A DNA stretch of 30,147 nt. Source: a virus. Numbering within the stretch: position 1 is the stretch's first letter; every line of letters begins with the position of its first letter. The DNA lies in the IMG/VR virus record IMGVR_UViG_3300030333_003802, positions 1 through 30,147 of that record, one strand, 5' to 3'. Below the pieces are notes generated by a model. That model had not been told where the DNA came from. It was given only the letters and a program-made list of their open reading frames with translations, and did no database searches. This document shows positions 1-23,770 of the stretch, piece after piece. Made by a program: the position numbers and the translations under genes.

Positions 1-3000
1 ATCAGTAGCTAATAATGATGTAATAGTTGTTTGAGCCGCCGAAACTGCTGCAGTAATAGTTGTTCCACTATTTGTAATTCCTATTCCATCTCCACCTAAC
101 AATGAAAAGTCTGCACTACCACCAGTGTCAGAAGCTTTACTTCCAGAACCTGTATCTGTTTGGAAAGTTACTGCTGTAATGTCTCCTGAACCTGAAGCAG
201 CAACTTGAGCATCAATATAAGCTTTAATAGATTGTTGAGTTGCAAGAGCAGTAGCGCTATCAGAACTTAAATCATCTTCATCTAATATTGCTGTTACTGT
301 AGCTCCGCTTGCTAATGTTAAACTTACATTATTAGTTACTCCACCGCCGTCTGCGATTGTTATAGCAACATCTCCATCTGTATAGTCAATAGTAGCTGTT
401 TCTAAACTACCACTAGCAATATTTAAACCAGTAGAATCTATCGATACTCTTTTAGTATTGTCTGCATAAAAATTAATTGTATTTGCATCTTCAAAGTCTA
501 CTTTAGTTTGGTCATCTTCACCTATCTTTATATCAGTAGCAAGTAAAGAAGTAATTGTTGTTTGAGCTGCAGATAAAGCAAAATCAAGGTTGTCATTAGT
601 TGTATCGTATGTTACAGAAATACCAGTTTCGGTATTACTTGAAACCATATTGTTACCTACAGTATCTCTAATATAAGTAGCTAAAGCTGTTCCATCTACT
701 GTTATAGCATCGGCTTCTAAGGTTCCATCAATATCAGCATCTCCACTTATATCTAAAGTAGCTGCATCTAATTCACCTGTAATTGTAAAATTTCTTAATC
801 CAGTATAATCTTTGTTTGAGTCAAGTATAACTGCTTTAGAAGCAATAGCTGTTCCTACGGCAGTGCTTCCTAAATCTAAAGCATTTAATTCTCCTACTAC
901 AGCTGTAATTCCATCTAAGACATTTAACTCTGCAGCGGTACTTGTAACTCCGTCTAAAATATTTAACTCTGCTGCTGTACTGCTTACAGCTGTTCCATTA
1001 ATAGAAAGAGCATCTGTCTCTAAGGTACCATCAATGTCTACATCTCCTGAAACATCTAAACTTCCTGCGTCTAGTTCTCCTGTAAGCGTTATATTTCTAA
1101 AACTTCCAATATCTTTATTACTATCAACAACCACACCTAAACTTGCTGAAACTGTTCCTGCTGTCACTCCATCTAAAACATTAAGCTCTGCAGGTGTTGC
1201 TGAAATTTGAGTAGTTGAAGCTGCTGCTAATACTGGTAAAGTTCCAGATACATTTGGTAAATTTATTGTTCTGTCTGCTGTAGGGTCAACAACTGTAAGA
1301 GTAGTTTCGTACCCATCTGCTGTAGCTCCTTCAAAAACAACTGCATTTTCAGCATTCATTGTTACTGTATCTACTTGAGTTGTTGTTCCTGCTACATTTA
1401 AATTTGGAACTCTTAAAGTTCCTGTACTTGGATTATAATATAATGCACCAGTATCATCGTATAAAGCACTTGTGCTATTACCAAATACTAAATCATAATT
1501 TACATTATCTGATTTGTCAGTTATAGTTACTGTAGAAGCCAATGTAGCGTTTGCTACTGTAACTCCTGCAATAACTGTATTTAAAGCAGTTCCTCCAACG
1601 GTAATAGCATCTGCTTCAAGTGTTCCATCTATATCCGCGTCACCAGAAACGTCTAATGTTGTTAAGTCTAATTCTCCTGCTATTGTTACATTACCATCTG
1701 CTAATGTAATTAAATCTGTATCGTCTGTATGTCCAATTGTTGTTCCATTAATAACAACGTCATCTATATCTGCTAATCCTGCTGCTAATGTACCAGTAGT
1801 GGTAAATCCTGCTGCTGTAATTGTTCCAGAAGTGGAATCATTTCCACTGTTAATTAAAAATGCGTCATCTACGTTAAGTGTATCTCCACTTAAAGAAATA
1901 TTTGTTCCTGCTGATAAATTCGTATCATCGCTAATATCAATAGTTCCAAGCGTAATAGCTTGTCCACTTAATGAAAGATAATCGTGAGAACTTGTAACAA
2001 GTGTTACATTGGTGCTATTATCTGTGCCTGAAGCGTCTACGCCTAAAGTTGTTCTTGCAGCACTTGCATTTGCATCATCTACAAGACTTGCTCCAAAGGT
2101 TGATATTGTTGTACTGTTGGGTACTGTTAATGATTTTATACCATCTAAATCTGTTACCTCGCTATCCATTAATGCACCAGCAGCTGTTACATTTGTTGCG
2201 TCAGTAACGTCTGCACCTGATTCTACACTTAACGCAGACAAGACTTCAGCTACGGTTAACCCTTCTACTTCTGTTCCATCAATTCTAAGAAAATCATTAT
2301 CTGCAACTGCATCATTAGCTGTTAAAACATTTCCATCGCTAATACCTTTTGTCAAACCTTTTACAAATGCAAGGTTTGTAACTTCAGAATCCATTAACGC
2401 ACCAGCGCTTGTTACGTTTGAAGTATCTGTTACATCAGCACTTGCTTCTATTGCATCTAACTTATTTTTAAGTGTAGTTGTAAAATTATTATCTGATTGT
2501 GTAGCTACAACAAAATCTATATTACCATCTGTGTCATCGTAGGTAACAGAAATTCCTGTTTCTGTACCGTCTAACATACCTCCAACAAAATCTTCTACCT
2601 GTTCTTGTGTTAGCGTAGCACTTATTTTTGAATCTAATTGTGTTTGAATATTTGAAGTTACTCCATCTACATAATTCAATTCTGCTGTAGTAGCTGTTAC
2701 TCCGTCCATTATGTTTAATTCAGAAGCAGTTGCTGTAACGCCATCTAAAATATTTAATTCAGAGGCTGTGGCTGTTACACCATCTAAGATATTTAATTCT
2801 GCGGTAGTTGATGTTACACCATCAAGAATATTAAGTTCTGCTGTTGTAGATGTTACTCCGTCCAAAATATTTAACTCAGATGCTGTTGAAGTAACACCGT
2901 CTAGAATATTTAATTCTGAAGTAGTTGCCGTAACTCCATCTAATAAATTTATCTCTGCTGTCGTAGCAGTCACTCCATCTAATATATTTAATTCAGATAC

Positions 3001-3243
3001 AGTAATTGTTGCACCGTCTAAAATGTTTAATTCAGCAGCTGTAGAAGTAATAGCAGTACCAGCATACTGCAACGCACCTGCTGAGGATATATTAACAGCA
3101 GCGCTGCTAAGTTGTAATACACTATCTGTAGCTTCTCCATCTGATACCGTCCTTAATGTTGAGTCTATACCTGAATTACTATTTGAGACCTGAAGGAGGT
3201 CTTTATAAGTATCTTTTATTCTTGTTCCTGTTAATGTCGCCAT
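1..3243 (-). CDS. Repeat-rich tail fibre / receptor-binding structural protein, C-terminus outside window
   Basis: An uninterrupted leftward frame of 1081 codons starts at ATG 3243, preceded by GAGG six bases upstream, and runs off the left edge, so the C-terminus is missing. After a short N-terminus come about ten tandem 13-residue units of the type S/A-ELNILDGVT-x-x-x (39-bp period, about 2655-3050). The middle holds three copies of a roughly 50-residue unit with the core SGDxDIDGTLExDA (near 700-785, 1000-1090 and 1595-1690). A segment reading SAAQTTITSLLATD occurs twice, near 550 and at the edge. Composition is Thr/Ser/Asp/Ala-rich with almost no Cys. Such repeats are common in fibre or stalk proteins of marine phages, and the position at the end of the morphogenesis operon fits. 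Which surface it binds cannot be read from this part. Confidence 0.85.
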   Translation of the reverse strand, partial: MATLTGTRIKDTYKDLLQVSNSNSGIDSTLRTVSDGEATDSVLQLSSAAVNISSAGALQYAGTAITSTAAELNILDGATITVSELNILDGVTATTAEINLLDGVTATTSELNILDGVTSTASELNILDGVTSTTAELNILDGVTSTTAELNILDGVTATASELNILDGVTATASELNIMDGVTATTAELNYVDGVTSNIQTQLDSKISATLTQEQVEDFVGGMLDGTETGISVTYDDTDGNIDFVVATQSDNNFTTTLKNKLDAIEASADVTDTSNVTSAGALMDSEVTNLAFVKGLTKGISDGNVLTANDAVADNDFLRIDGTEVEGLTVAEVLSALSVESGADVTDATNVTAAGALMDSEVTDLDGIKSLTVPNSTTISTFGASLVDDANASAARTTLGVDASGTDNSTNVTLVTSSHDYLSLSGQAITLGTIDISDDTNLSAGTNISLSGDTLNVDDAFLINSGNDSTSGTITAAGFTTTGTLAAGLADIDDVVINGTTIGHTDDTDLITLADGNVTIAGELDLTTLDVSGDADIDGTLEADAITVGGTALNTVIAGVTVANATLASTVTITDKSDNVNYDLVFGNSTSALYDDTGALYYNPSTGTLRVPNLNVAGTTTQVDTVTMNAENAVVFEGATADGYETTLTVVDPTADRTINLPNVSGTLPVLAAASTTQISATPAELNVLDGVTAGTVSASLGVVVDSNKDIGSFRNITLTGELDAGSLDVSGDVDIDGTLETDALSINGTAVSSTAAELNILDGVTSTAAELNVLDGITAVVGELNALDLGSTAVGTAIASKAVILDSNKDYTGLRNFTITGELDAATLDISGDADIDGTLEADAITVDGTALATYIRDTVGNNMVSSNTETGISVTYDTTNDNLDFALSAAQTTITSLLATDIKIGEDDQTKVDFEDANTINFYADNTKRVSIDSTGLNIASGSLETATIDYTDGDVAITIADGGGVTNNVSLTLASGATVTAILDEDDLSSDSATALATQQSIKAYIDAQVAASGSGDITAVTFQTDTGSGSKASDTGGSADFSLLGGDGIGITNSGTTITAAVSAAQTTITSLLATD
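2655..3050 (-). repeat. 39-bp tandem repeat array inside the fibre gene
   Basis: Around ten in-frame copies of a 39-bp unit encode 13 residues each, with the core ELNILDGVT. Copies differ mostly at synonymous or conservative positions (ELNIMDGVT, EINLLDGVT, ELNYVDGVT), so the array is kept at protein level. The boundaries given are approximate. Three further, scattered ELNxLDG units occur nearer the C-terminal side. Confidence 0.85.
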
Positions 3244-7535: not shown

Positions 7536-7964
7536 TTATGATATAGTCATATGGTCGTTATCGTGTTGTTGTCCACTTACATAGTAGTTAGAACCATCAC
7601 ACACTAACTCTGCCCAATCACCAACTGCTGCTCCAGAAGCCCAAACTAATTCATCAACTCCTGATTCTGCAGATTCTCCACCTGAAGAGTCTGCTGAACC
7701 AATCATACCAATTAAGGTATCTTCAGCTGAATTAGGGATTACTTTTACTGCATTTGATGCTGCTTCTGTAAGAATGAATTTTGCATTCCAACCTGGACCA
7801 GCTGTAGCTGCTAAAGGTAAAGTAATGCTATAAGCAGAATCCTGCTGTATGCAAAATACTGTACCTGAGTCAGCTGCTGTTAAGGTTAAAGCTGCGTTAA
7901 CAACTTTTACTTTCTTTCTTACGTCCGATACGCCACTATTAGGTTCTAAGTATGCACTTCTCAT
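7536..7964 (-). CDS. Capsid decoration-like small structural protein
   Basis: A 142-residue product from ATG 7964. A start at 8018 is open but lies inside the capsid gene, whereas GGAGGG sits 8 bases before 7964 and the ATG follows the capsid stop by one base. The protein is Ala/Ser/Thr/Gly/Val-rich and beta-like, with a 'GTVFCIQQDSAYSITLPLAA' segment and a 'GDWAELVCDGSNYYVSGQ' segment typical of beta-sandwich head or fibre-like surface proteins. Position immediately after the major capsid gene suggests a head decoration or stabilising protein; this is inference. Confidence 0.75.
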   Translation of the reverse strand: MRSAYLEPNSGVSDVRKKVKVVNAALTLTAADSGTVFCIQQDSAYSITLPLAATAGPGWNAKFILTEAASNAVKVIPNSAEDTLIGMIGSADSSGGESAESGVDELVWASGAAVGDWAELVCDGSNYYVSGQQHDNDHMTIS

Positions 7965-7965
7965 T

Positions 7966-9339
7966 TTAGATTCCCTCCACGTTATATAAAGCGTGAGATT
8001 CTGGTAATGTGATTTCAAGACCTGCTTCTGTAAGAATCATATCTTTTCTCAAATCTTCGTCTGACGCCTGAACGTTAGTCATAATTTGAGTATCACGATT
8101 TAAACCATTACCTACTAACGGTCTGTATGCTAATTTGCTCATATCAGCCATTAACATAAATCCGCTCGCAATACCTCTAAATAGAGGTTCTTTAACTAAG
8201 TATAGTGACCCGTGAACAGTGTTAATTTCCATTAGTCTATGACCAAAAGAACCAGCTACGTCATCATTTAATCTAAATGGAGAATACTGATATCCCATTG
8301 AATTATCAAGGAAATTAGAGTTACCCATTTTGTTAAAGTATGAAATAACAGGTAAAGAAGCAAGACATAGTCTTTCGCTTGAACCGCCTCTAGCAGGGTC
8401 AAAGATTACTTCCATATCTGATAATAGTCTGTCATATGTTAACTCTGATGTAGCTAATGTTCTGTTATAAGCTTTTCCAGAAGAATAGCTTAAAGCTGCA
8501 TCTGCATCACTAGGGCTAACGTTTTTAACAATGTTACCAACAAGACCTTCAGTGTACTGAATGCCATCGTTGGTTCGTGCTTTTTGACCAAAGAGCATAG
8601 CTCTTTCAATGTCAACTTTGTGTTCACGTAGTTTTTGAGCCCAAATTCTATCGAACTCGTTTGAATAGCCACGATGTCTTGTAGCTATTGCTGTGTTTGT
8701 CATCTCACAAGCTGTTTTAAAGATTTGAGTGTACCCAAAATTATCATCTAGTGTATCTGAGAAAGTGTCAGGTGAACCTGTTCCTTCTGCATATGATGTA
8801 CCAACTATTTGACATTTTGAATTGTTAGGTATTGTTGCATACCCGTCTACACCTGAATTTGATAGGTCAATTACTTTACCTGTAAATGAGGTAGAAGCAC
8901 TTCCTACTACTGGTGCTGACTCAACTCTAACCAAGACCTGTGAATAACCGTCGTCATTTGCGTCATTAGTTCTGACTGCAAATACCATTCCTTTTACAAG
9001 GAAGCCAATTGCTGTACCGCTATCAACATCAACTGTGAAGTCGTGTGATTCGTTAGCAGCAACAGCACTACCACCGTTTACGGCTGCAGCTGTATCAAAA
9101 GTTCTTGAAGTCCAATTAGTAACAGTTCTGTTTTCTAAAAAACGGAAAATGTTATCATCTGTTGGTACTTTAGCAACTTTAGATAAGTAGACGAAAAAAG
9201 GTGATTCCTCTGGCATAAGTTCTGCAACTCTATCAGAGAAATCATACAGCTTTCTTTGGTCTGGAGCTGTTCCGTAACCTGCGCTAGTTGAAGCTGCGGT
9301 TATATCTGACGCTTTTAGTATATTTTGATTATACGCCAT
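7966..9339 (-). CDS. Major capsid protein
   Basis: A 457-residue product starting at ATG 9339 (AGGAG ten bases upstream). It follows the scaffold-like gene directly, as in portal-scaffold-capsid operons. The N-terminal region has a 'LYDFSDRVAELMPEESPFFV' segment, then long mixed alpha/beta sequence with an RHRGYSNEFDRIWAQKLREH helix and a C-terminal domain rich in NxxSxF and Tyr/Leu motifs; this pattern resembles SU10-like or other HK97-fold capsid proteins. The assignment rests on length, gene order and general character, since capsid proteins diverge strongly. It would assemble into the icosahedral shell around the scaffold. Confidence 0.8.
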   Translation of the reverse strand: MAYNQNILKASDITAASTSAGYGTAPDQRKLYDFSDRVAELMPEESPFFVYLSKVAKVPTDDNIFRFLENRTVTNWTSRTFDTAAAVNGGSAVAANESHDFTVDVDSGTAIGFLVKGMVFAVRTNDANDDGYSQVLVRVESAPVVGSASTSFTGKVIDLSNSGVDGYATIPNNSKCQIVGTSYAEGTGSPDTFSDTLDDNFGYTQIFKTACEMTNTAIATRHRGYSNEFDRIWAQKLREHKVDIERAMLFGQKARTNDGIQYTEGLVGNIVKNVSPSDADAALSYSSGKAYNRTLATSELTYDRLLSDMEVIFDPARGGSSERLCLASLPVISYFNKMGNSNFLDNSMGYQYSPFRLNDDVAGSFGHRLMEINTVHGSLYLVKEPLFRGIASGFMLMADMSKLAYRPLVGNGLNRDTQIMTNVQASDEDLRKDMILTEAGLEITLPESHALYNVEGI

Positions 9340-9361
9340 TTGTTTTAGTCTCCTAAGTTAT

Positions 9362-10120
9362 TTATTTCTTAGCTAAACGACCAAAACTTCCTGCTTGAAC
9401 TATTCTATCCCAAGCCTGGTCTCTTTCAGACTTCTGAGGCTGGTCGCCTCCCTGAAGAACACCTGCTGGTTTGGGAACTGATTTAGCGGCTTGTACAGCT
9501 TTTCTGTTTTCATTTGGTTTTGTACTTACTCCTCTGCTTTCTTTCCAAACATTTATTAATGTTTCTATAGGAAGGTTAGCTTTTGGCGTAGTTGCAAAAT
9601 TTAAAAACTCTTGAGCTTCACTTTTTGACATATCGTGGTCAGCAACTAATTCGTTTTGTAAATTGTTCATAGCCATTTCATTTTGCAGTTTAGCTAATTC
9701 GTTATCTACTGTTTCGTGTACAAGCCTTTTTTCTTGACTTACTCTAAATTTGTAAGATTCAGATTCTGGCTTGTAATAAGCATCCCAAGGGTCAAAGGTT
9801 TCTGGAACTTCCATATTACCTTCTGAACTAGATTTTCCTGCAAGGTTCTCTTCTATCATATCAACTATTTCAGGTTTTTGATTTAACACATCTCTTAATT
9901 GCATCAAGTCTTGAGACTGTTGCGATAATGTATCGTGCTCTACAACCTTTTTGTCATACATAGATTGAAACTTTTTAGCTTCCGCTTCCCAATCAACTGC
10001 CACCTCAGATGGTTCTACACCTTCTGGTTCGTTAGCTTCCGCTGAAATAGTTTCCTCTGTTCCAGTTGATGCTACTATTGGGTCTTGTTCTACAACCTGT
10101 TCTTGTTCTTTGTTTGCCAT
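9362..10120 (-). CDS. Capsid assembly scaffolding protein
   Basis: The 252-residue product starts at ATG 10120 with AAGGAG seven bases upstream. It is very acidic in the N-terminal third (Glu/Asp/Gln-rich), helical in the middle with predicted coiled coil (AEAKKFQSMYDKKVVEHDTL), and becomes basic near the end (KPNENRKAVQAAKS). That charge polarity and the position between portal and major capsid are typical of phage scaffolds, which guide shell assembly and leave before packaging. No protease motif is apparent. Confidence 0.8.
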   Translation of the reverse strand: MANKEQEQVVEQDPIVASTGTEETISAEANEPEGVEPSEVAVDWEAEAKKFQSMYDKKVVEHDTLSQQSQDLMQLRDVLNQKPEIVDMIEENLAGKSSSEGNMEVPETFDPWDAYYKPESESYKFRVSQEKRLVHETVDNELAKLQNEMAMNNLQNELVADHDMSKSEAQEFLNFATTPKANLPIETLINVWKESRGVSTKPNENRKAVQAAKSVPKPAGVLQGGDQPQKSERDQAWDRIVQAGSFGRLAKK

Positions 10121-12221: not shown

Positions 12222-13811
12222 TTAAGTTTTTTGCCCTGTGACCCAACTAATAGCTTGAGACGCAAAGCTGTCTTGTTTTTTACTTATTCTTTCTTCCAGA
12301 GATTCTCGTTCTATAGCAGAGCTTCTAGGAGGTTTTGCAGTTGTTACAGAATACCATAAACCATCTAGTAAGTCGTCGTTTCTACCTTTTGGAAATTCAA
12401 ACATTTCATCTACAAGATTCTCGTGTTCTTTCTTAATATATAATTTTCTTTGATTTACTATAGGACATAACAGTGCTTCTATCCTATCTTCTTTTTTAAT
12501 CCCACCAGGAGGTCTTACTCCTAAAGCCAAACCAGGAGCCATTTTTCTATCTCTTCCTATTAATTTATTAACATAGTCTTTTACAATTCCTTGAGCTCCT
12601 ACCTTTTCTATATTAACTCTTCTAACTGGTTGATATTTTTTAGCATATTCAAATATTCTTTGAGGCATATCATATAAAGCAGAGTGTTCTCTATAATATT
12701 CTAAGACATAAATATTTCTTTCACTGTCAATTCCTATAACCATTATTACCTGGAAATCGCTTTTCTCGTTAGCTTCATATGCTAAATCTACTCCGATGTA
12801 AATATTTATAGGTATTGCAGATTCATCAATCATTAAATAATTAAAACCATCTCTAGATTCTACGTGACCTCTATAGTAGTTTAATCTATTAATTTTAAAT
12901 TTAGCAGTTTCTAAGTCCCTTGCTTCATTTAAATATTCTTGAGCAAATTTATGAACAAGACCCATATCACTAAATCTAGCTCTAATTTCCTCTAATTTTT
13001 TCTTGCTAAAATAGTTTGGCCAAAGAGGAACTCCGTCTACAATAGCTTTTTTATACATAACAGCCCAAGGAGATTGTCTTCCTTCTTTTTCAGCTGAAAC
13101 CCATCCATCATATACTCCTTGTAAAAAAGAGTCATAATGAACTATAGTTCCAATTAACCAAATAGAACCTTCTTGGTCTTTTGAGTTTTCTAAAGCTGGC
13201 TCTACTGTAGACATTACCCATTCTTTAATTTCTCTTCTTCTTTCTGGCGTTTTTGTATTTAGCTCAGATTCAAAGTCATCAAGAATAATATTTGTATATC
13301 TTAGTCCTAATTGTGAACGACCACGAAGCCTTTGAGATGTACCTTTTGCAATTACCCTATCTCCTCTTGCTGTTGTAAATTCTTTTTCAGTCCATTTAGT
13401 ACCTTTTAAATCTCCAAAGTAATAATTTAAAGCAGGGTTTATGTCAATATGGTTTTGAATATATTTGATGTGGTCAATAGCTTGAGACTGTTCTTCTGAT
13501 ACCCAAGCAATAAATTCTTTTTTATCAGGAGGATTAAAATACAGTTTATATAACAGTGCTGTTTTAGCTAATGTAGATTTTGCGTGACCACGAGGTAATA
13601 TAATACAAGCCCTTTTTTCATCACCTAACAGCAAATCGCTTAACTCATACTGATAGGGAGCTGGGCTAGATTTCATAAAATCTTCAGGTAAAAACATTTG
13701 CCCAAAAGTTATTATGTCTTTTTTGGCAAGTTCTAATGCTCTCTCTTTTTGAGAAAGGTCTGGAGGAATTATATTAAATTTCTCTGGCTTCTTCTTTGAA
13801 TTCTTTTTCAT
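12222..13811 (-). CDS. terL: Terminase large subunit (packaging ATPase-nuclease)
   Basis: The 529-residue product drives ATP-dependent DNA packaging through the portal and cuts the concatemer. ATPase motifs are clear: Walker A LPRGHAKST (72-80), Walker B NIILDDFE (174-181, Asp178/Asp179), and the coupling motif IGTIVH (220-225). The C-terminal RNase H-like nuclease shows IGVDLAYE (Asp342), and DDLLDGLWYS near 479-488 with Asp483 as an acidic metal ligand. Length matches phage large terminases. The start overlaps the cyclotransferase-like gene by 38 bases and has only a weak ribosome site, so it may be translationally coupled. Confidence 0.95.
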   Translation of the reverse strand: MKKNSKKKPEKFNIIPPDLSQKERALELAKKDIITFGQMFLPEDFMKSSPAPYQYELSDLLLGDEKRACIILPRGHAKSTLAKTALLYKLYFNPPDKKEFIAWVSEEQSQAIDHIKYIQNHIDINPALNYYFGDLKGTKWTEKEFTTARGDRVIAKGTSQRLRGRSQLGLRYTNIILDDFESELNTKTPERRREIKEWVMSTVEPALENSKDQEGSIWLIGTIVHYDSFLQGVYDGWVSAEKEGRQSPWAVMYKKAIVDGVPLWPNYFSKKKLEEIRARFSDMGLVHKFAQEYLNEARDLETAKFKINRLNYYRGHVESRDGFNYLMIDESAIPINIYIGVDLAYEANEKSDFQVIMVIGIDSERNIYVLEYYREHSALYDMPQRIFEYAKKYQPVRRVNIEKVGAQGIVKDYVNKLIGRDRKMAPGLALGVRPPGGIKKEDRIEALLCPIVNQRKLYIKKEHENLVDEMFEFPKGRNDDLLDGLWYSVTTAKPPRSSAIERESLEERISKKQDSFASQAISWVTGQKT

Positions 13812-14181
13812 ATTCTCTGTCCAACATAATTAGTGTTTTTCTAGATAACCAGTTTCCGTCTGGAACTTCTGTAAAAGAATTAGCGCTTTGCCATAATTGA
13901 GGTCCTGCTACATAAACCCAGCATTTTTCTTTAGAATCGTCTGGAAGGTAAACATCTACAGTTGTTCTTATATATAAACCTCCATCGACATTTTCATACA
14001 AATCGTATTCAACTAAATCTTGTTCATCGACATCAACGAGCTCAACAACAGCTCCTTTTCCTTTTGGGTTTTTTATTAAAGCAGGAAAAGACTGTGTTCC
14101 AGGAAAAACTAAGCTAAACCCTTCAACTTTTCCTACTTCAGTTCTTCCTCTTCTAAGAGTACCATATACAGCTAATCGCAT
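13774..14181 (-). CDS. Gamma-glutamylcyclotransferase-like (AIG2/GGCT-fold) protein
   Basis: A 135-residue protein opens with LAVYGTLRRG (residues 3-12), the signature substrate loop of GGCT/AIG2-like folds. It continues with a 'VEYDLYENVDGGLYIRTTV' block (57-75), in which Glu63 matches the catalytic acid of 'LDxyE...Y.R..V'. Family members release 5-oxoproline from gamma-glutamyl amines or peptides. ATG 14181 overlaps the upstream stop (TAATG), and the 3' end overlaps terL by 38 bases, so it is a fixed member of the packaging operon. Its substrate is unknown. The same fold is known to accompany amidoligase/amidotransferase gene sets, and both occur in this phage at 21-23.6 kb. Confidence 0.8.
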   Translation of the reverse strand: MRLAVYGTLRRGRTEVGKVEGFSLVFPGTQSFPALIKNPKGKGAVVELVDVDEQDLVEYDLYENVDGGLYIRTTVDVYLPDDSKEKCWVYVAGPQLWQSANSFTEVPDGNWLSRKTLIMLDREYEKEFKEEAREI

Positions 14182-16217: not shown

Positions 16218-16831
16218 TATTTACCCCATTTCTGGTTTTTGACTATTAACGCCATCGCTGCATATATAGCAGTATCTAAAAACGCATCTTCGATTGGTTC
16301 GTTCTGTGCTTCGAAGTTATGTTTCGTTGAAAGGTTAACTAGTCTGTTTATCTTATCATTTAGCCTTACTATAATACCTAGCAAAGCTACATTGATTTCT
16401 TCTTCGTTTTTAAGCGAAGTTCCCATAGCAATGTTGCCTGGGCCGTAATCAAATTGTTTTCTGCAAAATGTTAAATACATATCGTTTAACACTCTTTGAA
16501 GGTTTTCTTCTGTTTCTGGGTAGTTTTCTTTAATATAAGCTACCGTATCTTCAGCTGTAGATGTTTTTTGAGGCATATTTTGTCCAACATCATCTATTAC
16601 TTCTGTGGAACCTTCTGCAACTTCTCTTAATATCCTATTATCATCTGCCTTACTTTCGCATTCATATGGATATTCTTCTGTTTCTGAAGAGTCGTTTAAA
16701 GAACCTTCTATCTTCTTAAATGTTTTATTTATCTCTTTTTTATACTTATCCATACCTTGTTGTAGTTTTTGTACTATCTCTTTACTTCCTGCTTGTTTTG
16801 CTTTTAAGATTTTTTCTGTATTTTTTCCCAT
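16217..16831 (-). CDS. DUF1599 / Nmad1-type nucleotide-modification-associated protein
   Basis: The 204-residue product starts at ATG 16831 (AGGAG seven bases upstream). Residues 1-90 are a charged helical extension. Residues 115-200 carry the DUF1599 pattern: FCRKQFDYGPGNIAMG, then LGIIVRLNDKINRLVNL, then EPIEDAFLDTAIYAAMAL. The conserved Tyr-Gly, Arg-x-x-Asp-Lys and Asp-x-x-x-Asp residues recall all-alpha MazG-like nucleotide-binding folds. From family knowledge, Nmad1 proteins occur near phage base-modification genes; no thymidylate-synthase-like or hydroxylase gene is seen in this window. The N-terminal extension overlaps the metallopeptidase gene by 28 bases. Confidence 0.75.
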   Translation of the reverse strand: MGKNTEKILKAKQAGSKEIVQKLQQGMDKYKKEINKTFKKIEGSLNDSSETEEYPYECESKADDNRILREVAEGSTEVIDDVGQNMPQKTSTAEDTVAYIKENYPETEENLQRVLNDMYLTFCRKQFDYGPGNIAMGTSLKNEEEINVALLGIIVRLNDKINRLVNLSTKHNFEAQNEPIEDAFLDTAIYAAMALIVKNQKWGK

Positions 16832-17118
16832 ATATACTCTCCTATCCCTAATTGAAATAATCCATTTGATATTGCATCAATATATTGCTCATCGTGCTTT
16901 AATCCGCAATTAAAGTAGATTGCGTGTAATATTTCGTGTATTAGTGTTTCTTGTTGTCTTGATTCGTGAATATCCTTATTTATATATATAACGTTCTCCT
17001 TAACCTCGTGTCTACCATATAACTCCCTTGTAGGGTCATTGTCAGTTAATTCTGTAGGAACAATTGTATATATATGTCCACCTATGTTGATTTGCCACTT
17101 ATTTAGCTTTTTTCCCAT
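16804..17118 (-). CDS. HExxH metallopeptidase-like protein
   Basis: A 104-residue product from ATG 17118, chosen because GGGAG lies eight bases upstream; a longer TTG-initiated reading lacks a site. Residues 57-66 read ETLIHEILHA, a zincin HExxH signature (H61, E62, H65). After it comes an acidic 'HDEQYIDAIS', which could give the third ligand (Glu77 region). Short zincins of this kind with a preceding beta hairpin (HIYTIVPTEL) resemble ImmA/SprT-like phage proteins. Proteolysis is inferred from the motif only. Confidence 0.75.
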   Translation of the reverse strand: MGKKLNKWQINIGGHIYTIVPTELTDNDPTRELYGRHEVKENVIYINKDIHESRQQETLIHEILHAIYFNCGLKHDEQYIDAISNGLFQLGIGEYIWEKIQKKS

Positions 17119-17287
17119 TTTTCTTTTTCTCCCTATCCTTTTTTTTATCAATTGGGTCTCCCGTGTAAGAATCTACCTCTTCCTCTTCTTCGAAAAAATT
17201 TTCATACATAAACTCGTCTGACATTATGCGGAAACTTTCTTCTATAAGACGTTCTATTTCTGCGGTTTTATCTTTTTTCTTTCCCAT
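17099..17287 (-). CDS. First gene of the leftward operon, small charged protein
   Basis: A 62-residue product with an acidic core (NFFEEEEEVDS) and a Lys-rich tail (KKKDREKKKNGKKAK); no fold is recognised. ATG 17287 has no Shine-Dalgarno sequence. A TTGACT...TAAAAT promoter ends just nine bases before it, so translation may begin on an almost leaderless mRNA. Its 3' end overlaps the metallopeptidase gene by 20 bases. Confidence 0.65.
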   Translation of the reverse strand: MGKKKDKTAEIERLIEESFRIMSDEFMYENFFEEEEEVDSYTGDPIDKKKDREKKKNGKKAK

Positions 17288-20780: not shown

Positions 20781-21028
20781 TAATATAGGTTTTTAAGCCG
20801 CGATTTTTATATAGCGACGCCCACCTACACATTAGACCATAGTCCTTAATCCTTTCGGGACTTGTAGGTATAGACAAGAGGCGTCGCAAAGAATTATTTG
20901 ATATGTGAAGTAGAGCAAGGCTCTGCGACTGAAGTAGACACCTACTCTTGAAGCATATTGTATATAATGGGAAGTCTCACCTGACGAGGCATTAGATATT
21001 TGACAATTAAATAAATAAGGAGACTAAT
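20781..21028 (+). promoter_or_regulatory. Structured leader of the amidotransferase-amidoligase pair
   Basis: The gap before gene 21029 holds nested helices: GCGACGCC (20814-20821) with GGCGTCGC (20880-20887), ACCTACA (20823-20829) with TGTAGGT (20863-20869), and AGTCC (20841-20845) with GGACT (20858-20862). Two hairpins follow: AGAGC-AAG-GCTCT (20912-20924) and AGTAG-ACAC-CTACT (20933-20946). Finally AGTCTC (20973-20978) can pair with GAGACT (21020-21025), which contains part of the ribosome site. TGAAGTAGA occurs twice between helices. This could be a cis-acting switch or a small RNA; I could not match it to a named riboswitch. Confidence 0.65.
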
Positions 21029-22111
21029 ATGTGTGGAATATATGGTTTAGCGAAAAGTCCGACGACTTACACCAAGCGACAATTCAAAACTGTCAAAAAG
21101 GTATTAAGAGAAATTGCAGTAGATAGTGAGACTAGAGGTGCTCACTCGTCTGGAATTGCACAAGTCGGAAACAAAACTAAAATACATAAATCACTACTTC
21201 CGTCTTCCAAATTCGTGGACAGCAAAGGTTATATAGAAGCAGTTAAATCTTTAAAAGATGGAAACTATATTCTATTAGGACACACACGATTTGCGACAGA
21301 AGGTGCTATTGTAAAGAATAATGCTCACCCATTTAGAGTTGGCGATACTATCGGCGCTCATAATGGTTGTGTCTATAATATTGAGGAAATGCAGACAAAG
21401 TTAGATAAACAATGTCCAGTAGATAGTCAATTAATATTCAAGGCAATAGACGATAATGATAACATAGACGAAGCAGTTAAACATTTTGACAGCGATTTTG
21501 CATTGTCATTTGTTAAGACAAATCCTATGGTATTACACCTATGTCGTGAGGACAATCGTCCTTTGTATGTAGCATATGTCCCAAGTTTGCTAACTCTATT
21601 TTATGCAAGCGAAGCGACTTTTATTGAGAATGCTTTGATTGCGTGTAATTTAGACGCAGAGATATATTCATTAAATAAGAATACTTTATATTCTTATGAT
21701 GTATCTAAGTTTAGCGACTTACAGACAAATGTAGAAAAAAGCGACTTTGAATACGAAAGTAGAGAATATAATTTCAGTATCAATAATTATTCTTCCAACG
21801 ACGAATTTGACGATTGGAATAGTTATAATTATAGTTATGGGAATTATCGTCCTCTATATGACACTTCACATCTTTACGACACAAATGGAAACCTAATTGA
21901 TAGTGAACTTGAAGCCGAAAAACAAGAGCTTTTGACTTGTTATGGCGGAAATCCTAACAACTGGTTTTTTGACGAAATGGAAGGTATGTGGAGTTATCTT
22001 GATGAATATACTGGACAAATTTGGACAGAAACCCAACTTATAAATGGGAATTTTCAACAAGAAATTGACTTTGAAGAGGAGACAGACAATGCCCAACCAA
22101 TACGAAACTGA
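21029..22111 (+). CDS. Class II glutamine amidotransferase (Ntn hydrolase)
   Basis: A 360-residue protein starting MCGIYGLA: after Met removal Cys2 is the N-terminal nucleophile. The class II set is present: RGAHSSG (36-42), GHTRFAT (84-90), N98/H100-P in 'NNAHPF', GAHNG (109-113) and the DSQLIF stretch (132-137). It would hydrolyse glutamine and pass on ammonia. The C-terminal 130 residues are acidic, with Asn/Tyr/Asp-rich sequence (SYNSYGNY-type), and contain no synthetase domain such as AsnB or PurF carry, so the acceptor must be handled by a partner. The next gene, overlapping by 23 bases, is an amidoligase, the partner expected for this arrangement. Ribosome site AAGGAG precedes ATG by six bases. 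Confidence 0.88.
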   Translation: MCGIYGLAKSPTTYTKRQFKTVKKVLREIAVDSETRGAHSSGIAQVGNKTKIHKSLLPSSKFVDSKGYIEAVKSLKDGNYILLGHTRFATEGAIVKNNAHPFRVGDTIGAHNGCVYNIEEMQTKLDKQCPVDSQLIFKAIDDNDNIDEAVKHFDSDFALSFVKTNPMVLHLCREDNRPLYVAYVPSLLTLFYASEATFIENALIACNLDAEIYSLNKNTLYSYDVSKFSDLQTNVEKSDFEYESREYNFSINNYSSNDEFDDWNSYNYSYGNYRPLYDTSHLYDTNGNLIDSELEAEKQELLTCYGGNPNNWFFDEMEGMWSYLDEYTGQIWTETQLINGNFQQEIDFEEETDNAQPIRN

Positions 22112-23639
22112 AACGACGCACGAGAATGCCCAGAATACAATACTATTGCAATGCGATGATTGTGGAAACGAAGTCCGCGAGGACGACTTAACTGGCACAG
22201 ACGACGGAAATGAAGTCTGTGAGGACTGTTATGATAACAATTATTCCGAGTGTTATGGTTGTAGTGGTGTTATGGTTCACGACGATATGCATTACTATAA
22301 TGGTGATTATTATTGTGAAGACTGTTTTTACGATAATTGTTTTCATTGTGCAAGTTGTGGAGAACCAGAGCATTTAGACTATTCTCGCTACGACGACCAT
22401 AGTGGAGATACTTACTGCGAAGGTTGTTATGAAGAATATGGTGGTGAGGAATACGACTGGAATGTCTTTTCAAATGAATATGTTCAAGTAAACGACGATT
22501 TTGCTTCTCCGACTAAAAACCTATACAAAAGCGATACTTACGACTTAATCCCAAGTCGCAGATATCAAGGTATAGAGGTTGAGGCAAATCATAATGGAGA
22601 CTATTCACGAGACAATATTGCAAGAGCTATTGCAGAGAGAATAGACGATACAAGGTTGGAACAGATGTTTGACGAAGTTAGTCAAGCAGAGTTTCCCGAC
22701 TGGTATAAGATAAGTGGCATTCAAGTAGTAAGTGATGGAAGTATAACAGGTGGCGACGATGGTTATGGTTATGAATATGTAATGACACCGCGTCGCGGAG
22801 ACCAACTATATACTGATATGTGTTTACTTACAGACACACTTGTAGACTATGGACATTACATTAGTAGAAAGTGTGGCTATCACTTACACATTGATATTAG
22901 AGACTACGACTATTATCACTTAACCTGTCTTATGGCTATGGTTAAGTTAATAGAACCTCATATATACTCTTGGGTTCCGCAATCCCGACTTACTGGGAAT
23001 TGGTGTCGTCCGATATCTCAAAACTGGTATGACTTTAATGGCATATACGACAGAGATGATTTCATTGAGATTTATTACGACAATGGTAATAAATTTAGAT
23101 ATGAAAAATATCACGACAAAAGGTATCACGGTTTTAACCTACACTCTCACTTTGGGAGCAATCAAGGTTTAGAACTGAGATATCACGGCGGGACACTCAA
23201 TCCGACTAAAATGTTGCATTGGAGTATTCTTTGGGGACAGATAGTAGATAAATGTTATGAACTTGGAAATGAACTCAAGACACAAGTTGATAGACGAAAT
23301 TTCTTTAAGGACATAACATTTGACAAGAGATATGGCGACGAGACGAAAGGGTTTAGAAATCCGACTATGGACATACAAAACCTTTTTGAGACTTTTGACA
23401 TACCTCAAACAACGAAAGACTACTATGGAATGCGACAAAAGGAGATAGAAAATAATCCGAATACTTCTCCGACGCATTTCGTTGATTGTTTTTCAAAGAC
23501 TTCACATATTGTGGAGTTTGACAAAGCGACAATGAGTTTCAATACAGTCAAAAAACTACCTCACAGGGTAGGGAGATATGGGACTTTACAGGAACTCACA
23601 TACGACGATATAAGCAGTCATTTTGAGATTGCCTCGTAG
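22089..23639 (+). CDS. Zinc-ribbon amidoligase (COOH-NH2 ligase fold)
   Basis: The 516-residue protein starts at ATG 22089, seven bases after GAGGAG; a start at 22044 would lie deep in the amidotransferase and lacks a site. Residues 20-115 form three zinc ribbons with paired CxxC knuckles: C22/C25-C44/C47, C55/C58-C76/C79, C87/C90-C110/C113. Residues 155-400 match the Amidoligase_2 pattern: GIEVE (161-165), SDGSI plus YEYVMTP (215-234), CGYHLHIDIRD (262-272), NLHSHFG (350-356) and LELRYHGGTLN (361-371). This fold, related to glutamine synthetase and GCS2, uses ATP to join a carboxylate to an amine. Family knowledge places it next to glutamine amidotransferase genes, as here. Acceptor unknown; the ribbons may select a protein or nucleic-acid target. 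Confidence 0.85.
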   Translation: MPNQYETETTHENAQNTILLQCDDCGNEVREDDLTGTDDGNEVCEDCYDNNYSECYGCSGVMVHDDMHYYNGDYYCEDCFYDNCFHCASCGEPEHLDYSRYDDHSGDTYCEGCYEEYGGEEYDWNVFSNEYVQVNDDFASPTKNLYKSDTYDLIPSRRYQGIEVEANHNGDYSRDNIARAIAERIDDTRLEQMFDEVSQAEFPDWYKISGIQVVSDGSITGGDDGYGYEYVMTPRRGDQLYTDMCLLTDTLVDYGHYISRKCGYHLHIDIRDYDYYHLTCLMAMVKLIEPHIYSWVPQSRLTGNWCRPISQNWYDFNGIYDRDDFIEIYYDNGNKFRYEKYHDKRYHGFNLHSHFGSNQGLELRYHGGTLNPTKMLHWSILWGQIVDKCYELGNELKTQVDRRNFFKDITFDKRYGDETKGFRNPTMDIQNLFETFDIPQTTKDYYGMRQKEIENNPNTSPTHFVDCFSKTSHIVEFDKATMSFNTVKKLPHRVGRYGTLQELTYDDISSHFEIAS

Positions 23640-23650
23640 TATGGACATAA

Positions 23651-23682
23651 GACTGGTGGCGACTGAAAAGTTGCCATCAGTC
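23651..23682 (+). other. 13-bp hairpin after the amidoligase gene
   Basis: GACTGGTGGCGAC pairs with GTTGCCATCAGTC around a TGAAAA loop (two G-T pairs). It starts 11 bases after the stop and is followed by A-runs, not T-runs, so it is not an ordinary terminator; 3'-end protection or processing is more likely. Confidence 0.7.
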
Positions 23683-23736
23683 AAAAAAAGATTTGGAATT
23701 TATCACATTTAATGCTAAATTCTTAGTGTTAAATTA

Positions 23737-23745
23737 TGCTATATT
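23737..23745 (+). promoter_or_regulatory. Extended -10 promoter candidate before the small-gene cluster
   Basis: TGCTATATT in the context ATTATGCTATATTA, 25 bases before ATG 23771. The same 12-mer TTATGCTATATT recurs at 25443 before the RHH gene. Confidence 0.5.
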
Positions 23746-23770
23746 AATAAAGAGAAGGAGCGACTAAAAA

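Follow-up and report, generated by a model that had tools for sequence, protein, structure and literature searches.

The window, a stretch of 30,147 nucleotides that makes up the first part of an IMG/VR virus record (IMGVR_UViG_3300030333_003802, here G000), encodes a glutamine amidotransferase (GATase) and an amidoligase in overlapping genes. The pair is preceded by a folded RNA leader and followed by a hairpin, and a third enzyme of the set, a gamma-glutamyl cyclotransferase (GGCT), is encoded elsewhere in the window. The features are as follows.

13774-14181, minus strand: gamma-glutamyl cyclotransferase (AIG2/GGCT), third enzyme of the set (PF06094, 3.9e-14)
20814-20887, plus strand: structured RNA leader element before the GATase gene (fold z=-5.5, covariation, no Rfam match)
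21017-21022, plus strand: Shine-Dalgarno sequence AAGGAG of the GATase gene, read from the sequence
21029-22111, plus strand: class II (Ntn-type) glutamine amidotransferase, 360 aa, without a synthetase domain (Pfam GATase_6, AF2 model, invariant catalytic residues)
22089-23639, plus strand: Amidoligase_2 protein (carboxylate-amine ligase), 516 aa, with three N-terminal zinc modules (Pfam 6e-17, AF2 model, motifs)
22152-22427, plus strand: three LIM-like zinc modules, at Cys 22/25/44/47, 55/58/76/79 and 87/90/110/113 of the amidoligase (Cys conservation, weak LIM matches)
22557-23231, plus strand: Amidoligase_2 catalytic domain (PF12224, match to 2-240 of 245, E=2.5e-19)
23651-23682, plus strand: 14-bp hairpin just 3' of the amidoligase gene, with an A tract after it (fold z=-8.9)

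G000 is 71.7 kb long, a scaffold interrupted by two 10-N gaps (30148-30157 and about 55985-55994). Its second part carries another terminase (TerL 35% identical; L007 13828-15399) with portal and capsid genes, and holds neither the module nor a second amidoligase. The scaffold is probably a chimera of two related phages, and the module is therefore not argued from that part. Among cultured phages the nearest TerL shares about 27% identity, a capsid search points to mixed hosts, and searches of bacterial genomes with the zinc-bearing amidoligase and the terminase gave no match and hence no host. The label "marine" used here comes from an earlier reader of the sequence and from the nature of the related records rather than from metadata. 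PADLOC returned no match, so no listed defence system was found. Elsewhere in the window, a long protein with many ELNILDGVT-type repeats (1-3243, minus strand) looks like a typical tail or fibre protein, and a small homologue of M78/SprT-like metallopeptidases (16804-17151, minus strand) is conserved beside the terminase region in relatives.

The original prediction of a class II amidotransferase without a synthetase domain was borne out by both domain content and fold. Pfam assigns the product of 21029-22111 to GATase_6 (E=2e-14) and GATase_7 (E=5e-7) and detects no synthetase, isomerase or phosphoribosyltransferase domain in it. An AF2 model (pLDDT 82) matches the GlmS glutaminase domain best (3e-13), followed by PurF, AsnB and EgtC. 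The protein begins MCGIYG, which places the nucleophile C2 of an Ntn glutaminase fold at its start, and C2, R87, N112, G113 and D132 are invariant in 30 homologues. The core of the enzyme changes slowly, with a median identity to the window of 74%. The predicted 23-base overlap with the amidoligase gene is exact (22089-22111).

The amidoligase scores 62.8 bits against PF12224, where the cut-off is 22 (E=6e-17). Its AF2 model is of moderate quality (pLDDT 79.5); Foldseek ranks YbdK first (1e-4), then glutamine synthetases, and further down gamma-glutamyl-methylamide synthetase (GMAS), the Pup ligase PafA and a PINCH LIM pair. As full-length TM-scores are low, the fold is assigned on the strength of structure match, profile and motifs all agreeing. 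The carboxylate-amine ligase fold is common to the window protein and the YbdK/glutamine synthetase/PafA superfamily, whereas identity is about 10% and the window protein has added LIM-like modules. Twelve residues, G161, E163, E165, D216, S218, E229, H265, H267, R300, N350, E362 and R364, are invariant among 44 close homologues. They make up the motifs GxExE, D-x-S, E, HxH, R, N and ExR, which other phage amidoligases share; the active-site residues are kept in those of Bacillus, Arthrobacter, Porphyromonas, Pseudomonas, Salinivibrio and Sinorhizobium phages, in an alignment that omits L048 and has Ser for G161 in one row. Profile and structure searches thus recovered GATase_6/7, Amidoligase_2 and the COOH-NH2 ligase fold, and the residues singled out beforehand (Cys2 of the GATase; Glu163, His265 and Arg364 of the ligase) are each invariant in homologues, so that an amidoligase with its catalytic motifs is confirmed. 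Each record of the clade has exactly one amidoligase by profile search. As a single-protein query the amidoligase found no match among viral contigs; homologous contigs were reached with GATase, TerL and amidoligase-alignment queries. Conservation is uneven along the protein, with a median identity to the window of 46% in the catalytic domain (intermediate), 34% in the zinc modules (fast-changing) and 23% in the C-terminal region (fast).

The three zinc ribbons expected at the amidoligase N-terminus proved to be three four-cysteine modules, each of the form C-x2-C-x(17-19)-C-x2-C. Ten of the twelve cysteines are invariant in the 44 homologues, and the remaining two are kept in 42-43 of them. 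We call the modules only LIM-like, since they score below the cut-off for the LIM domain (PF00412; 19 bits versus 22.9) despite a weak resemblance in sequence and fold (Pfam 0.0017, CRP1 2.7e-5, PINCH LIM by fold 0.019). In a second phage group (L202, L208, L209, L211, L213, L214, L216, L218, L219, L222) the GATase is flanked by two amidoligases, CxxC pairs occur on both ligases and on the GATase C-terminus, and a cyclotransferase is also present. This distribution suggests that zinc modules are shared between the partners of one complex. Clear homology of the GATase C-terminal modules to those of the amidoligase was considered and dropped, the match being weak (E about 4e-3). A third group (L215, L220, L224) has the ligase first and then the GATase, and no cyclotransferase. 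Separately, L198 and L200 encode a 130-aa ORF downstream of the amidoligase (9170-9562) with one amidoligase-like zinc module (E 3e-5).

The original prediction described a dedicated module of GATase, amidoligase, zinc modules and leader, all of which stand, but it missed the third enzyme. The GGCT gene (13774-14181, minus strand) sits between the terminase subunit genes and overlaps the start of the large subunit gene (12222-13811). GGCT changes slowly (median identity to the window 71%). Its place in the set was assessed on 80 IMG/VR contigs chosen only for their terminase, so that the selection took no account of the module. GGCT lies beside TerL in all 77 of those with at least 450 bases upstream, and both GATase and amidoligase are present in all 27 with at least 8.5 kb upstream, although some of these contigs are near-identical and the counts overstate their independence. 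Contigs picked by GATase gave the same result in all loci with room, and PF06094, as one cyclotransferase, was found in 22 of 26 whole records. With 77/77 for GGCT and 27/27 for both other genes, the three enzymes form a core module of the clade, and the expectation that phage relatives would keep GATase and amidoligase together is upheld. The phage family is large, uncultured and marine by label, and carries this fixed three-enzyme set behind an RNA leader.

We interpret the set as a three-enzyme module for glutamine-dependent amidation that is a pared-down form of the podovirus "peptidoglycan modification cassette", and put the probability of this reading at about 0.6. What the analysis establishes is the set of genes and its presence throughout the clade, the fold, the conservation of the active sites and that of the RNA structure; chemistry, target and regulation we infer. 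The GATase, judged from its fold and invariant catalytic residues, would free ammonia from glutamine. Its overlapping and probably complexed partner, the amidoligase, would activate a carboxylate with ATP and join ammonia or another amine to it, producing an amide or gamma-glutamyl bond, as its fold and motifs suggest. GGCT may then remove or cyclise gamma-glutamyl groups, limiting or recycling the product. We place the reaction in the cytosol, since no protein of the set shows a hydrophobic stretch at its N-terminus and since Cys4 zinc modules fit that compartment; its most likely target is a cell-wall precursor or a host protein. Such targets are favoured, and a metabolite or a virion protein is possible. 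A probable role of the zinc modules is to bind the target or to keep the complex together.

A metabolite target would make the pair an enzyme system of small-molecule metabolism, producing gamma-glutamyl or amidated metabolites that GGCT recycles as 5-oxoproline; amine assimilation and glutathione-like or secondary metabolites would all fall under this heading. GGCT-family enzymes act on small gamma-glutamyl compounds, and gamma-glutamyl-methylamide synthetase and the YbdK ligase are among the closest folds of the amidoligase. We nevertheless regard this alternative as unlikely: a small-molecule ligase has no need of the zinc modules conserved on the amidoligase, and the C-terminal part of the protein changes quickly (median identity to the window 23%).

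The position of GGCT raises the further idea that the module modifies the phage's own late proteins, such as capsid or terminase, with GGCT as a late-acting partner. The gene is 7 kb from the GATase/amidoligase pair, on the opposite strand and in the packaging operon, and may for that reason act at another time. Because it overlaps the terminase gene, it is probably expressed with the packaging genes; the overlap recurs in a second, more distant clade, and in the second phage group all five records checked have the cyclotransferase gene overlapping that of TerL. Against this, the GATase and amidoligase genes are located in an early-type region, GGCT belongs to the early cassette in cultured phages, and a search for a marked target site found none. 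Modification of late proteins thus appears quite improbable, and amidation of a wall precursor or host protein is retained as the preferred reading.

The leader is the most original part of the finding, a conserved folded RNA for which no Rfam family matches at or above the gathering threshold. In the window it consists of an outer helix GCGACGCC/GGCGTCGC, a middle helix ACCTACA/TGTAGGT and a hairpin whose loop contains AATCCTTTC. Across the family it is a three-helix RNA in which an outer GCGAC...GTCGC helix and a middle helix are accompanied by a hairpin whose UCCUUUC loop is invariant; one extra hairpin, with the loop UAGUCG, is usually present. In the main family (24 distinct sequences), 18 of 25 pairs show compensatory changes and 88.5% of cells pair, values reached by none of 500 shuffles; the signal collapses when the partner is shifted by 1-3 columns. 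A covariance model scores strongly in 33 loci, each just upstream of the GATase gene, and recovered the leader at 58-60 bits in eight loci from contigs outside model building. Directly upstream of GATase, the leader is present in about 40 contigs. The window copy scores only 15.5 bits (E 2.8) with this general model and so is not claimed from it alone. It belongs to a divergent sub-type of four members (the window, L048, L052 and L066) that lacks the extra hairpin and has double changes in 10 of 13 counted pairs, again reached by 0 of 500 shuffles. On its own, the window copy (20814-20890) folds with z=-5.5, and the structured leader of the original prediction is thus substantiated by fold and by covariation beyond chance. 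In L028 the main leader is immediately preceded by another hairpin element (7782-7851), which has the same type of outer helix but lacks the UCCUUUC loop.

Our hypothesis is that the leader probably tunes translation of the GATase. UCCUU in its loop is complementary to the GATase Shine-Dalgarno AAGGAG, a match that is not significant on its own; per sequence, the complementarity spans 4-8 bases and mostly does not exceed shuffles. Proven sequestration was accordingly rejected as a description, with complementarity mostly at chance level and the loop showing no covariation. The UCCUUUC loop stays constant when the Shine-Dalgarno changes, so that direct sequestration is not supported by covariation. 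The same constancy fits a leader that serves mRNA processing or stability rather than regulation, which would be compatible with the main reading of the enzymes. This is a real possibility, if a less than even one: the leader occurs as one copy per genome, always before the GATase gene, with both loop sequence and helix junction conserved, all of which argue against it. More doubtful is the idea that the leader represents a new cis-regulatory RNA class, sensing the glutamine/ammonia state or a module component and gating zinc-guided amidation. If it were true, these marine phages would use nitrogen status to turn modification of a host target on and off. The leader RNA is in any case a separate, testable find tied to one gene.

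At the other end of the pair, the hairpin said to follow the operon is real and has a 14-bp stem rather than the 13 bp first given. A strong hairpin occurs after the amidoligase gene in most relatives too, several with a T run. The window hairpin (23651-23682) has no U tract and is not reported as terminator-like; its reading as a canonical terminator was rejected, as A's follow instead of U's.

The amidoligase/GATase/GGCT set is widespread in phages, and predictions that it modifies the host wall go back more than ten years. The podovirus "peptidoglycan modification cassette" is described for phiEco32, LUZ24/PaP3, PA11, CW02, RIO-1 and PSA-HP1 (Iyer et al. 2009, as cited in PMC10580990; PMC5498523), with a further published source in PMC3890496. 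Papers citing Iyer and colleagues use this name and suggest a role in superinfection exclusion (PMC10580990, PMC5498523, PMC11945000). Action on peptidoglycan is a hypothesis in the literature, and our literature search found no assay of it and no biochemistry for any member of the set. The dedicated modification system of the original prediction is supported as a module, but the same three families had already been published in a larger phage cassette. By its gene content, the window set is a slimmed-down form of that cassette, with zinc modules, and not a new system.

The podovirus cassette and the window clade share a class II GATase, an Amidoligase_2 protein and GGCT in one genome, and the same active-site motifs. 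In cultured phages the cassette families occupy one neighbourhood, most with an ATP-grasp protein and a second COOH-NH2 ligase. The window clade differs in having neither: ATP-grasp (phrog_2599) is absent from G000 and 10 related records of 42-57 kb, and the PF14395 COOH-NH2 ligase from 11 clade records (42-72 kb), with 4 of 4 cultured controls positive in each search; as clade records may be fragments, both absences hold for the recorded sequence. On these two absences we regard the window module as a reduced variant, whose product may differ from that of the published cassette. Zinc placement also differs, the modules being at the amidoligase N-terminus in the window and, as paired CxxC, at the GATase C-terminus in CW02, TC6, p2-10_Or1 and T5S1. 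GGCT lies within the early cassette in cultured phages and in the packaging operon in the window clade, which has in addition the structured RNA leader. The marine OM43 phages MEP401 and MEP402 are reported to have an amidoligase (PF12224) and a GATase (PF13522); they are likened to the window by description, and zinc modules, GGCT and leader do not figure in the part of that description drawn on (PMC10580990). Arthrobacter phage Kovu resembles the window in having GGCT, amidoligase and GATase without ATP-grasp or a second ligase in the stretch seen, whereas its genes are contiguous, its amidoligase and GATase have no CxxC pairs and no leader RNA was found. The window clade keeps the set in its simplest complete form: each genome open to checking has a single ligase, a single source of ammonia and a single cyclotransferase, which makes the set tractable for expression and assay.
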